From assembly GCA_943787295.1 (NCBI GenBank), contig CALSLW010000001.1, positions 124,001 to 188,000 of the forward strand: a DNA stretch of 64,000 nt. The letters are read 5' to 3'. A program made the translations under genes and the position numbers. Below the pieces are notes generated by a model. It did no database searches. It saw only the letters and a list, made by a program, of their open reading frames with translations, and was not told the DNA's origin. Positions within the stretch are counted from its first letter, which is position 1; the number at the start of each line of letters is the position of its first letter. The DNA comes from an uncultured Flavobacteriaceae bacterium (GTDB lineage Bacteria > Bacteroidota > Bacteroidia > Flavobacteriales > Flavobacteriaceae). Positions 46,153 through 51,811 of this stretch are shown here, in pieces.

Positions 46153-48213
46153 ATGAAACAAGATCAATTTATCAATAGAGAGCTTAGCTGGTTAGACTTT
46201 AATGCACGAGTGTTGCAAGAGGCAGCAGATCCCACTGTCCCCTTGATTGAGCGATTGCGGTTTTTAGGGATTTTTTCAAATAATCTCGATGAGTTTTTCC
46301 AAGTGCGATTTGCTACGGTCAAACGCATTGCACAATCCCAAAAAACTGGAAAAAGAGCCCTAGGAGGTGTAAAGGCAGATGAACTTTTAGAAGACATTAC
46401 TAAGGTAGTAATCCAGCAACAAGTCAATAGTGCTAAAATCTTAAATGAGATTGAAGACCAACTTGAAAAAGAGAATATTCACTTCTTGCGACAAGAAGAA
46501 GTGAATGCGGCTCAAGCTGAATTTCTAACCGACTACTTTTTACAGAAGGTAAGTCCGCGTTTGGTTACCGTTATCTTAAAAGAAGAAGAACAAGATTTTA
46601 CCGACAATAAAGCCTTTCTCGCTATAAAAATGAAGCTAAGTCCTACTATGGCTGAAGCCAAAGGAGATAAGCTCTATGCCGTGATTGAAATGCCGAAAGA
46701 AGTCGATCGCTTTATCCCCCTTCCGCCGGAAGGCGAAAAGCAATGCTTAATGATGTTAGATGATTTAATTCGCTATCATTTCCATCTGATTTTTAGTATG
46801 TTCAACTATGAGAGTATAGAAGGACATATGGTTAAAATCACGCGAGATGCCGAGTTAGATATAGAAGAAGATGTAGGGAAGAGTTATGTGGAAAAAATTA
46901 TTGACAGCGTCAAAGATCGCCTGGTTGGAGATCCAGTACGTTTGGTTCATGATAAAACAATTGCCCCAGAGACCCTTGCGGTAGTAATGAAAAAACTAGG
47001 AGTAGCTTCTACCGATAGTTTGATTCCTGGGGGGCGTTATCATCACCGCAGAGACTACATGAACTTTCCTAGTTTAAATAGAAAAGATCTGCTCTACAGT
47101 GCGTTTCCTGCTTTGCCCTTAAAAGGGATTTCCCTTGAGGATAATATTTTGGAGGCGATCGCTAAAAAGGATTATTTGATCTATACGCCCTACCAAAACT
47201 TTGCCTACGTCATTAAGTTTTTACGGGAAGCGGCCCTAGACCCAAAGGTCAAGACCATTAAGATCACCATTTACCGTTTGGCTAAACTGTCTCAAGTTGC
47301 TAGTTCTTTAATAAATGCCGCTAAAAACGGGAAAAAGGTTTTGGTGCAAATTGAGTTACAAGCCCGTTTTGACGAAGAAAATAATATCCAAGCCGCAGAA
47401 AGTCTTGAAAAGGCAGGGGTACAACTCATCTTTGGAGTGCCAGGTTTAAAGGTACATACCAAGATATGTGTTATCGAGCGCGAAGAAGGTAAAAAACTCA
47501 TGCGCTATGGTTTTATCAGTACAGGGAATTTCAACGAATCTACCGCTCGAATTTATACCGATTATACGCTATTTACCTCTCACCAAAAGATTTTAAAAGA
47601 TGTTTCAAAAGTTTTTAACTTCCTATCGGTAAATTATAAAATCAAGAAGTACAAGCATTTGATTGTTTCGCCTCATTATACCTTTTCTACTTTGATTCGT
47701 TTAATCGAGCAAGAGATTGAGCATGCAAGAGAAGGAAAGAAGGCCCGTATTCGGTTAAAGCTTAACAATATCACTAATTATAAAATTATTAGTAAACTAT
47801 ATGATGCGAGTCGCGCTGGAGTACAAATTGATATGATTGTACGCGGAGTGTGCTGCTTGATACCAGGGGTAAAGGGGATGAGTGAAAATATACGGCTGAT
47901 TAGTGTAGTGGATAAATTTTTAGAACATTCACGGGTATACATTTTTGAAAACAATGGGGACCCACAAATGTATATTTCTTCTGCCGACTGGATGACACGT
48001 AATATTTACAACAGGGTAGAAGTAGCCTGTCCTATCTTAGATAAAGACATACAACAAGAGTTATTGGACACTTTTATGATTTCTTGGAATGATAATGTTA
48101 AAGCAAGATTAGTAAATACCAACGATCAAAATGCTTTTGTTAATAGTCAGGGAGAGGCAATACGATCCCAATGGGCAACCTATGCTTATTTTAAAAATAA
48201 ACTTAGCGAATGA
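46153..48213 (+). CDS. ppk1: Polyphosphate kinase 1
   Basis: FINRELSWLDFNARVLQEA; IYRLAKLSQVASSLINAAKNGKKVLVQIELQARFDEENNI; VHTKICVIER. Confidence 0.95.
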   Translation: MKQDQFINRELSWLDFNARVLQEAADPTVPLIERLRFLGIFSNNLDEFFQVRFATVKRIAQSQKTGKRALGGVKADELLEDITKVVIQQQVNSAKILNEIEDQLEKENIHFLRQEEVNAAQAEFLTDYFLQKVSPRLVTVILKEEEQDFTDNKAFLAIKMKLSPTMAEAKGDKLYAVIEMPKEVDRFIPLPPEGEKQCLMMLDDLIRYHFHLIFSMFNYESIEGHMVKITRDAELDIEEDVGKSYVEKIIDSVKDRLVGDPVRLVHDKTIAPETLAVVMKKLGVASTDSLIPGGRYHHRRDYMNFPSLNRKDLLYSAFPALPLKGISLEDNILEAIAKKDYLIYTPYQNFAYVIKFLREAALDPKVKTIKITIYRLAKLSQVASSLINAAKNGKKVLVQIELQARFDEENNIQAAESLEKAGVQLIFGVPGLKVHTKICVIEREEGKKLMRYGFISTGNFNESTARIYTDYTLFTSHQKILKDVSKVFNFLSVNYKIKKYKHLIVSPHYTFSTLIRLIEQEIEHAREGKKARIRLKLNNITNYKIISKLYDASRAGVQIDMIVRGVCCLIPGVKGMSENIRLISVVDKFLEHSRVYIFENNGDPQMYISSADWMTRNIYNRVEVACPILDKDIQQELLDTFMISWNDNVKARLVNTNDQNAFVNSQGEAIRSQWATYAYFKNKLSE

Positions 48214-49097
48214 AGATTGAACGTTATGCCGCCATAGACATCGGTTCTAATGCCGTTCGTGTCTTGATTTCTAATGTAGTGACCAAAGCAACTGCTCCTC
48301 CTAAATACATGAAGAGTTCTTTAGTGCGCGTTCCCATTCGTTTAGGGCAAGATTCTTTTACTGTGGGAGAAATTTCTGAGGCTAACATAAAGCGCATGGT
48401 CAAAGCCATGAAAGCTTTTAAGTTGATCATGAAAGTCAATAAGGTTAAAAGGTATATGGCCTGTGCTACTTCGGCCTTACGCGAAGCGAATAATGCCGAA
48501 GAAGTAATCCAAACCATCAAAAAGAAAGCAGGAATTGAGATTCAGATTATTGACGGGAAACGAGAAGCAGAAATTATTGCCACCACAAATATTTTTGAAT
48601 CCATCAATAAGAACCGTACTTTTCTCTTTATCGATGTAGGAGGGGGGAGTACAGAATTCTCTGTTTTGGTCAAAGGAAAACGTATTGTCTCAAAGTCTTT
48701 TAAAGTAGGTACTGTACGAATGATTAACAATATGGTAAGTGATAAAGTCTGGGAGGAGATCAAAATGTGGATTGAAACTCATACAAAGGATTACTCTAAG
48801 CTTGCTTTATTAGGATCTGGAGGAAATATTAATAAGCTATTTAAAATAGCGAAAGTAAAAGATGGAAGACCACTAAGTTTTATTAAACTTAATACGCTTT
48901 ATAACGAGCTAAATCAATTAGATTATAACGAGCGTATCATTCAATGGGAACTCAATCCCGACCGATCTGATGTGATTATCCCTGCGACTCAAATTTATTT
49001 AAAGGCCTTACAATGGAGTGGCGCTACCGAAATTTTTGTACCAAAGATTGGACTTTCGGACGGGATGATTAAGGTGTTGTACCGCGAAAATAAATAA
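48210..49097 (+). CDS. ppx: Ppx/GppA-family exopolyphosphatase
   Basis: AAIDIGSNAVRVLI; FIDVGGGSTEFSVL. Confidence 0.9.
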   Translation: MKIERYAAIDIGSNAVRVLISNVVTKATAPPKYMKSSLVRVPIRLGQDSFTVGEISEANIKRMVKAMKAFKLIMKVNKVKRYMACATSALREANNAEEVIQTIKKKAGIEIQIIDGKREAEIIATTNIFESINKNRTFLFIDVGGGSTEFSVLVKGKRIVSKSFKVGTVRMINNMVSDKVWEEIKMWIETHTKDYSKLALLGSGGNINKLFKIAKVKDGRPLSFIKLNTLYNELNQLDYNERIIQWELNPDRSDVIIPATQIYLKALQWSGATEIFVPKIGLSDGMIKVLYRENK

Positions 49098-49140: not shown

Positions 49141-50876
49141 TTAAAGATCCAAATCTAATTTCTTGCGCAACTCATCAATGGCAGGGTTGATTTCTCTTAA
49201 ACGATTGTATTTTTCTTCTGGGGTATAAATATAGTTTTTCTCTTCGCTTTCTTTTACGAGTACTTTAATCTGAATGGAGTAATTGTTTAAGTTTTTCCTT
49301 AAATCAGGGAGGAAGTAAACAAATTCCCTTTCTAATTCCACCTTGTTAAGGGGAGAGGGAACGGTGTATTCTATGCTATTGATAGCAACAATTTTAGGCT
49401 GGCTTAATTGAAAAAGCGAGGCTAGGTTTTGCTCTCGTTTTTTTGTTTTTTCTTCTTGCCAATTTTCCCAGTATTGATCTAGTTGTTCTTGTGTAAAAGG
49501 ATCACTAGGGAGCTCTTCCGCTTTTTCTATTGGCTTTTGTTGCTGTTCCCATTCTTTCTTTTTGCGAATGCTCGCCAAAGAAAAAGAAGAGATTTGTTTT
49601 CCATCCTTTGATTTTATTTGAATCTTCGGTGTCTCTGTTGTGCTGGATACCGGGGGAGCAGTTGGAGTTTCTGCACTTAGTGGTTTAGTGTTATAATCTG
49701 CTTTGGGTTCTTGAACTTCTTGAGCAGGAGGTGTAGCTTGTGCTGTAGCTATTGATTTTTCTTTTGGCTTAGCCTGAAGAAAGAAGGAGGTGGGAATTAA
49801 GCTTCCTTTTTTTTTTCTCCATTAAAATGGAGGGAGGCGATTTGCATAAGGCATAACTCGACGTGTAATCGCTTGTTTTGACTGTTTTTATAGGACAGTT
49901 CACAGTTGTTTGCGAGATCCATTGCATCGGCTAGCCAGGCTAAGGAAACCGCTTTTGTTTGTTCTGCATAACGTGCCTGTAGACGTTCACCCGCTTCTAA
50001 AAGCGGAATTGTTTTAGGGTCCTTACATAAATATAAATTGCGCAAATGACTCGCTAAACCGCTGATAAATTGTTCTCCATCAAACCCTTTTTGTACAATC
50101 CCATCGTATTGAATTAATGCTTCTGGTATCTCATGGGCAATTAACTTTTCTGCTAGAGATAAGTAGGCAGAGTGATCTAAAATATTGAGGTTTTCTGCGA
50201 CTGCCGCTACAGTTAGATTGTTGTTGCAAAAGCTGCACATACGATCGTAGATCGAAAGGGCATCTCGCATCGCTCCATCTGCTTTTTGACCAATAAGGTG
50301 TAAGGCTTCTTCTTCAAATGTAACGCCCTGCTCTGTCGCAATTACAGCGAGATATTGTTGAACATCTATGGGGGTAATACGTTTAAATTCAAAGATTTGA
50401 CAGCGAGATAATATGGTAGGGATAATCTTGTGTTTCTCTGTTGTAGCTAGGATAAAAATTACATGCTTAGGCGGTTCTTCAAGGGTCTTTAAAAAGGCGT
50501 TAAAGGCCGCAGTGGAGAGCATATGAACCTCGTCAATGATATAAACCTTGTGGCTTCCAGTTTGTGGTGGAATTCGGACTTGTTCATTGAGATTGCGAAT
50601 ATCTTCTACCGAGTTGTTAGAAGCCGCATCGAGTTCAAAAATATTAAAGGCAAAGTCTTGGTCGGTGTCTTGATCGCCCTGATTGTTTATTTTTTTCGCC
50701 AAGATACGCGCACAAGTGGTCTTTCCAACTCCTCTAGGTCCACAAAACAAGAGTGCTTGCGGAAGTTGGTCTTTAGCGATTGCGTTCTCTAAAGTCTGCG
50801 TAATCGCTTGTTGACCAACAACATCTGAGAATTGTTGTGGACGGTATTTGAGTGCAGATACAACGAATGCTTCCAT
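49141..50876 (-). CDS. dnaX: DNA polymerase III subunits tau (full) and gamma (49797-50876), expected via -1 frameshift or slippage at 49806-49816
   Basis: Gamma ORF: VSALKYRPQQFSDVVGQQAITQTLENAI, GPRGVGKTTCARILA, ends HFNGEKKKEA*. The -1 frame runs open from the A10 tract (KKGSLIPTSFFLQAKPKEKS...TPKIQIKSKDGKQISSFSLASIRKKKEWEQQ) into ORF 49141-49578. Confidence 0.85.
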
Positions 50877-50965
50877 TATTTCAAATGTAAAAAAAGGGAT
50901 TGGGATAACCTTATCAAGGAAGGCTTTAGCGACAAAAATTATTAACAATATTGTACCTTTGCCGC

Positions 50966-51260
50966 AAGCAGGTCTCTTATCGCTGCCCGCCAATGGCGGG
51001 GAGAGGAAAGTCCGGACACCATAGAGCAGTATAGCGGGTAACACCCGTCGTTCGCCCTGGCGAATAGGACAAGTGCAACAGAAAGAATGTACAGGTTAAG
51101 CTGTAGTGAAACCAGGTAAACTCTATACGGTGCAACGCCAAGTATATCTGCGCTTAAGAGCGGCTCGTTCAAGTAGAAGGGTAGGCGGTTTGAACCCATG
51201 AGTAATTGTGGGTCTAGATAAATGATAAGACACGACAGAATCCGGCTTATGGCCTGCTTT
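50966..51260 (+). ncRNA. rnpB: RNase P RNA (bacterial class A)
   Basis: GAGGAAAGTCCGGACACC near 5', ACAGAATCCGGCTTATGGCCTGC at 3', terminal pairing AAGCAGGTC/GGCCTGCTT; promoter TACCTTTG just upstream; T7 at end. Confidence 0.95.
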
Positions 51261-51262
51261 TT

Positions 51263-51811
51263 TTATTCTTCTTCTGTTAAAGCAAAAAAACTAAATCGAC
51301 TGCTGCCATAGATGCGATCTTCATAGCACAAAGGGTGTTCTGACAAATTTAAATGGCTATCGTGTTCAATGACTAAAAGTCCCTCTTTACTGAGCCAATT
51401 ATTGTCTAACAGCTGCGCTGCTATAGTCAATAATTGGTCCTTTGTAAAAGCATAAGGTGGATCTGCAAAGATAAAGTCAAACGTTCCTGCTGGCTGATTC
51501 AAAAAGCGTTCAACAGAATTTTTAATCACTGTAATTGGCATATTAAAAGACTGTGCCGTTTGATCGATAAAATAAACACAGTGTTTGTTTTGATCGACTG
51601 CGGTCAGCTGTTGCACCCCTCTTGAGGCTAATTCAAAAGAAATGTTTCCTGTTCCAGAAAAAAGATCAAGGGTTTTGATTTCGTCCCAGTGGAAGTGATT
51701 GTTTAGAATGTTAAATAGCGCTTCTTTAGCACGGTCTGTGGTAGGACGAACCGGAAGTTGCTTTGGCGCTTTTAAGCGCCTACCTTTAAAAGCTCCAGAG
51801 ATAATTCTCAT
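51263..51811 (-). CDS. rsmD: 16S rRNA (guanine(966)-N(2))-methyltransferase RsmD
   Basis: MRIISGAFKGRRLKAP; RPTTDRAKEALFNIL; DLFSGTGNISFE; FIFADPPY. Confidence 0.93.
   Translation of the reverse strand: MRIISGAFKGRRLKAPKQLPVRPTTDRAKEALFNILNNHFHWDEIKTLDLFSGTGNISFELASRGVQQLTAVDQNKHCVYFIDQTAQSFNMPITVIKNSVERFLNQPAGTFDFIFADPPYAFTKDQLLTIAAQLLDNNWLSKEGLLVIEHDSHLNLSEHPLCYEDRIYGSSRFSFFALTEEE

Follow-up and report, generated by a model that had tools for sequence, protein, structure and literature searches.

A candidate RNA polymerase slippage site flanked by a conserved hairpin in dnaX of Flavobacteriaceae

The dnaX gene of Escherichia coli gives rise to two products by -1 ribosomal frameshifting at A_AAA_AAG, a process that uses an SD-like element 5' of the site and a stem 3' of it (PMC3711429); frame 0 encodes tau and the -1 frame gamma. 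Frame 0 is likewise tau in Thermus thermophilus, where transcriptional slippage on an A9 run situated after domain III yields gamma. Antonov et al. (2013; PMC3711429) reported a further class of dnaX genes, in which tau depends on recoding at ten As, and the class was reviewed in 2016. In this two-ORF class a poly-A stretch (ten As in nine of the genes) precedes the frame-0 end of gamma, tau lies in the -1 frame and the two parts are not annotated as one gene; the class comprises 17 genes, and the main text of the study names no upstream hairpin for the cluster. The 2016 review noted also that at about 50% efficiency a single nucleotide can reverse the roles of gamma and tau. In another gene, Citrobacter rodentium tssM1 (A11), the long product is made only via poly-A transcriptional slippage and both lengths are needed (PMC4256274), with no hairpin mentioned in the available text of that report. 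Finally, in a Roseiflexus IS, GCGGGCgcaaGCCCGC lies directly 5' of a 10-nt motif, and slippage is driven by the hairpin formed in the nascent RNA (PMC5009743).

Here, the dnaX gene of an uncultured Flavobacteriaceae bacterium was compared with these systems; the stretch of 64,000 nucleotides that was analysed is referred to throughout as the window. Its placement in this family is borne out by a scan of named genomes, in which the nearest relatives were all Flavobacteriaceae, at 63-68% identity. As judged from its sequence, the gene is a member of the two-ORF recoded class, which was thus already known: frame 0 ends just after domain III, the adjacent tau part is homologous to the DnaX C-terminus, and a poly-A stretch (7-10) at the junction is conserved among relatives. 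It goes beyond the class as described in 2013 in that the arrangement is found throughout a genus, and is accompanied by frame swaps and a conserved hairpin. The first-pass annotation had likened the heptamer and its phase to the classical E. coli site, which is correct for the codon phase of A_AAA_AAG and the expectation of two products, but the products are reversed with respect to E. coli, and neither E. coli-like SD spacing nor a conserved 3' stem is present. The likeness to T. thermophilus lies in an unbroken run of at least nine As after domain III, and a ladder of transcript lengths is proposed for the window; the frame-0 tau that sets T. thermophilus apart is found also in the window's sister genera. 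The Roseiflexus element has the same geometry as the window, a 10-nt slippery motif being immediately preceded by a stem of 6 bp with a 4-nt loop, but is a mobile element with a T5C5 (U5C5) motif that loses one C, whereas the window has a housekeeping gene with A10, in which tau requires the gain of one A or the loss of two.

Organisation of dnaX in the window

The features considered are listed below by window position.

49797..50876, minus strand: dnaX frame-0 ORF, encoding gamma (359 aa, 40.1 kDa); ATG at 50876, ending ..GEKKKEA-stop
49807..49816, minus strand: A10 slippery run, exactly ten A
49812-49806, minus strand: heptamer A_AAA_AAG
49817..49832, minus strand: stem-loop CTCCAT-TTTA-ATGGAG (stem of 6 bp, loop of 4 nt) abutting the A-run, a candidate stimulator of slippage when formed in the nascent RNA
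49797..49799, minus strand: frame-0 TAA terminating gamma, identical in position in all 18 congeners
49141..49809, minus strand: 222 codons of the -1 frame specific to tau, with linker and C-terminal domain (dN/dS; PRK14971 match)
49793..49806, minus strand: weak downstream stem GGAA-GCTTAA-TTCC, considered; not conserved

The junction reads CTC CAT TTT AAT GGA GAA AAA AAA AAG GAA GCT TAA on the minus strand, and the perfect hairpin reported by the first-pass annotation is present there as described. The same annotation held that dnaX stops after domain III and that the -1 frame bridges an apparent hole into ORF 49141-49578; indeed, that frame is open for all 222 codons to 49141. The gamma ORF comprises the AAA+ domain, lid and domain III (Pfam DNA_pol3_delta2, DNAX_ATPase_lid and DNA_pol3_gamma3; TIGR02397) and matches positions 1-370 of the full-length DnaX model NCBIfam PRK14971 (614 positions), while the -1 ORF matches positions 405-613 of 614 (E 1e-21), i.e. 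the C-terminal third of this Bacteroidota DnaX model. Since both match successive parts of PRK14971, the two ORFs constitute one gene, in order. The long form of DnaX, tau, consists of frame 0 plus the -1 part, and ten As, as encoded, give gamma only. Translation of a version with 11 As gives the long protein, as had been anticipated, and the tau predicted from transcripts with 8, 11 or 14 As has a computed size of 577-579 aa and 65.5 kDa.

The gene is divergent from the RNase P RNA gene (window 50965-51264, plus strand; RF00010, 201.6 bits), and a spurious GTG-started extension of the dnaX ORF to 51044 runs into that RNA gene. Tail to tail with dnaX lie two long plus-strand ORFs (window 46153-49097), which we take to be ppk and ppx from the resemblance of their translations.

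The split in dnaX recurs at the same codon in 18/18 congeneric genes that could be found among 19 genomes of the genus, in assemblies of 1 to 190 contigs, with the same stop 2-3 codons further on. An A10 run is error-prone, and a few single relatives could represent homopolymer errors (e.g. L226, which has A9 in a one-contig assembly), but a miscount in the assembly of the window, with a true run of 11, is so improbable that it can be set aside: 18 separate congeneric genomes agree, fragmented and near-complete alike, and congener L019 has A11 together with a lost G, such that the frame is unchanged although A_AAA_AAG is not in phase there. The possibility that the gene is truly split or makes gamma only, with a C-terminal part that is decaying or is translated alone from TTG, the start given by ORF callers to ORF 49141-49578, is highly improbable also. 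No ATG is present in the -1 ORF of the window or of six other congeners, making separate translation unlikely; the frame is open across the linker as well as the C-terminal domain; and sister genera encode a single continuous protein. Moreover, the -1 ORF is under purifying selection, with NG86 dN/dS values of 0.06-0.29 among usable pairs, and 0.02-0.17 over the last 130 columns. Sequencing error and a pseudogene are ruled out by the 18 split congeners and these dN/dS values. The first-pass annotation had proposed that programmed -1 frameshifting or transcriptional slippage yields gamma and tau, and the comparative sequence evidence supports its view of dnaX as a programmed recoding gene, and not an error.

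The A-run and the frame of tau among relatives

All synonymous sites of the run are A in 122/122 Flavobacteriaceae genes, against 52.6 expected from each gene's own codon usage, a contrast that is inflated by the choice of loci for having a run, although only one of the family loci read (L181) lacks one. The As outside the heptamer are conserved too, and any of T, C and G may follow the run, the G of A_AAA_AAG being thus dispensable. This G is found in 33/43 genes with tau in the -1 frame, mostly in the window's clade and Flavobacterium, against 16/75 with tau in frame 0. The exceptional L181 (G061; a 2.2-Mb relative, 99% complete) is split alike after gamma codon 354 with its tau frame open, and has a run reduced to AAAA. 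Uninterrupted relatives without a run, named beforehand as the result that would speak against recoding, were not found within the family, every uninterrupted relative having kept its run. Beyond the family, uninterrupted dnaX genes with no A-run were observed in Bacteroidaceae/Prevotellaceae and some Pedobacter (L133, L137, L139, L143, L153, L158, L163, L164, L167, L170, L173 and L174); the slippage site is lost or was never present in the loci examined from these groups.

Sister genera carry the same run at the same codons (GGA GAA AAA AAA AAT/C), with the difference that frame 0 runs into tau and the -1 frame stops 1-2 codons on. Among the Flavobacteriaceae genes read with runs of at least nine As, 75 have tau in frame 0, 43 in -1 and 4 in +1, counts that are not frequencies because split genes were preferentially sampled; in an evenly drawn search of the family about 1 in 6 genes were short, among the matches listed. 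Run lengths among relatives are 9, 10, 11 and 13 As. A FastTree tree built on the first 338 residues requires at least 19 switches between frame-0 tau and the split form among 123 Flavobacteriaceae genes, and 32 among 202 Bacteroidota, although some single switches may be homopolymer miscounts. Two loci, L226 (G103; A9) and L229 (G082; A13), have nearest relatives with frame-0 tau, and are possible homopolymer errors of this kind as opposed to real switches.

Opposite directions of shift are required even between close relatives. Within one genus, L039 (A11) has tau in -1 and L040 (A10) in +1, and a Flavobacterium pair shows the same opposition (L101, A10, -1; L100, A9, +1), the genomic run length in these four loci never being in the tau frame. 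No single ribosomal shift can serve both members of such pairs; all would be served by a polymerase producing transcripts with a ladder of run lengths. Antonov et al. (2013; PMC3711429) take mixed directions of shift as a sign of transcriptional realignment, and the swapping of tau between frames 0, -1 and +1 while the run is kept favours slippage by RNA polymerase over -1 ribosomal frameshifting.

Two further observations concern the distribution of the site. A split dnaX with a run of 9-10 As occurs also in distant classes of the same phylum (L287-L290, 40-42% identity), and thus the site may be old. In L057 (G051), a reduced, endosymbiont-like genome of 300 kb, DnaX ends at 341 aa with no tau part, and the gene apparently makes gamma only.

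Structures flanking the run

The RNA flanking the run was examined by folding all 22-nt segments within the final 600 nt of gamma, in 177 loci whose run has at least nine As. The segment flush with the run had a mean MFE of -5.5, compared with a background of -1.13 (standard deviation of offset means 0.51), and the minimum fell exactly at distance zero. At a threshold of -4 kcal/mol and a distance of at most 3 nt from the run, an upstream hairpin is present in 85% of 122 Flavobacteriaceae genes versus 9% elsewhere in the same genes; in other Bacteroidota (n=55) it is less common, with values of 44% and 13%. The hairpin is stronger than in synonymous recodings that keep protein and codon usage (mean of about -5.5 against -2.5), with P<=0.05 in 91/177 loci and P<=0.01 in 49/177.

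The stem also covaries across the family, scoring 0.282 versus 0.188 when shuffled (0/500), with slid structures scoring no more than 0.164; stem cells changed on both sides number 22, compared with 9.0 when shuffled, and include replacement of A-U by G-C and C-G at -16/-5. Covariation inside the genus alone is weak, and phylogenetically independent pairs agree in direction at -14/-7, in a comparison of low power with few supported pairs. In most lineages -20..-13 pairs with -8..-1, and in the window's clade -16..-11 with -6..-1; other forms of the stem are CATCACT-TTT-AGTGATG in L236 and CTTCAT-TTTA-ATGAAG in L225. Since the register differs among lineages, it is the structure that is kept, and not one sequence. 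A role as terminator is ruled out, because As come next on the sense strand. The literature searched, whose reach stopped short of the 2013 supplement and the Thermus paper, nowhere mentions a hairpin upstream of a dnaX slippage site; we would call new here the dnaX hairpin, the fact that it is conserved across the family, and the tally of role swaps.

It is conceivable that the A10 run slips unaided and that the hairpin serves another purpose, such as pausing or mRNA stability, or none. Runs of A9-A11 do so in T. thermophilus dnaX (PMC1088944) and C. rodentium tssM1 (PMC4256274), and some relatives have the run without the hairpin. Nevertheless, plain slippage of this sort is rather unlikely as a full account, given that hairpin placement peaks exactly at the run, that the stem covaries, and that of the 15 runs of at least ten As in this genome only the dnaX run has a flush hairpin. 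Some other runs of 10-13 As in the genome (L214, L216, L217, L218 and L223) lie in open sense-strand stretches of 158-506 codons, lack flush hairpins and are, from sequence, slippage candidates in their own right.

The weak stem of 4 bp downstream of the run, GGAAGCTTAATTCC (49806-49793), had been put forward as a second stimulator, a suggestion that did not hold up. At least a third of the congeners have lost it or retain only about 3 bp, and no conserved structure was found downstream of the run across the phylum in the 177 loci folded, where downstream segments were mostly above background MFE; as a stimulator it is therefore ruled out. The SD-like GGAG within the upstream hairpin is an unlikely stimulator also, since it is only 4 nt from the heptamer, is absent in 36/122 Flavobacteriaceae relatives (30%), and would face a sequestered anti-SD: Bacteroidia ribosomes fail to recognise SD, the anti-SD being held in a protein pocket (PMC9976891). 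The upstream hairpin, proposed at first pass as a stimulator of recoding, does exist and is conserved, but its action is probably exerted in the nascent RNA and not via GGAG.

These observations bear directly on whether tau might be made by classical -1 ribosomal frameshifting at A_AAA_AAG, the run being merely a long slippery site. The heptamer is in the right codon phase in 17/18 congeners, the sole tRNA-Lys in the genome has a UUU anticodon, as in E. coli, the G following the run is enriched in -1-type genes, and in Chlorobium phaeobacteroides the dnaX gene possesses potential stimulators resembling those of its E. coli counterpart (PMC5009743). A ribosomal mechanism of this kind is nonetheless unlikely to be the source of tau here: it cannot serve relatives with tau in +1, neither a conserved 3' stem nor workable SD pairing is present, As beyond the heptamer are conserved too, and the upstream stem, which reaches up to the run's first A, would presumably lie inside the ribosome decoding the run. 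The enrichment of G leaves room for some ribosomal contribution. Where the first-pass annotation had left frameshifting and slippage as alternatives, the comparison thus favours slippage, with tau in -1 or +1, a free base after the run, no conserved 3' stem and no SD pairing, and transcriptional slippage is quite probably the main route to tau.

A proposed mechanism and its implications

According to the mechanism proposed, RNA polymerase would slip on the ten template Ts of dnaX. Once the last A is made, the entire 9-10-bp RNA:DNA hybrid would be rA:dT, and the stem-loop just behind it would fold in the RNA exit channel, loosen the hybrid and promote realignment. The outcome would be a mixture of mRNAs, in which transcripts of 10 (or 7 or 13) As encode a gamma of about 359 aa, tau of 577-579 aa comes from those with 8, 11 or 14 As, and the remaining run lengths lead to termination about 10 codons later and a gamma-like protein. 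Both clamp-loader subunits would in this way be obtained from one gene, in a ratio set by run length and hairpin. The Roseiflexus hairpin causes a loss of one base, and the fact that tau here needs +1 or -2 A counts against the analogy. Homopolymeric A-runs gain As readily, as in T. thermophilus and C. rodentium tssM1, and so, conjecturally, the hairpin might only need to release the hybrid for realignment in either direction.

Directly established are the gene's anatomy and conservation, the selection acting on its -1 ORF, the conserved and covarying hairpin, and frame swapping among relatives; that slippage occurs, the level it would reach and its stimulation by the hairpin are inferred. The combination of transcriptional slippage with a stimulating hairpin seems reasonably likely on these grounds, tempered by the split in L181 despite its run of four As, by the weak covariation within the genus and by the lower occurrence of the hairpin outside Flavobacteriaceae. 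The most extended form of the proposal, that in Flavobacteriaceae and part of the wider Bacteroidota a nascent-RNA hairpin flush with an A10 run drives slippage and sets the tau:gamma ratio, with an efficiency sufficient for the frame-0 subunit to drift freely, strikes us as evenly balanced between true and false.

If slippage aided by the hairpin is correct, then programmed slippage of RNA polymerase underlies the production of an essential replication protein in a large bacterial family, one that belongs to a lineage with ribosomes unable to exploit frameshift stimulators of the SD type. Annotation pipelines will call such dnaX genes broken, or two genes. The natural swaps between frames 0, -1 and +1 at one site would constitute a ready-made test of the slippage efficiency that is needed, and the gene would provide a cellular model for the shifting of RNA:DNA register by nascent-RNA hairpins, which has so far been tied to a mobile element.
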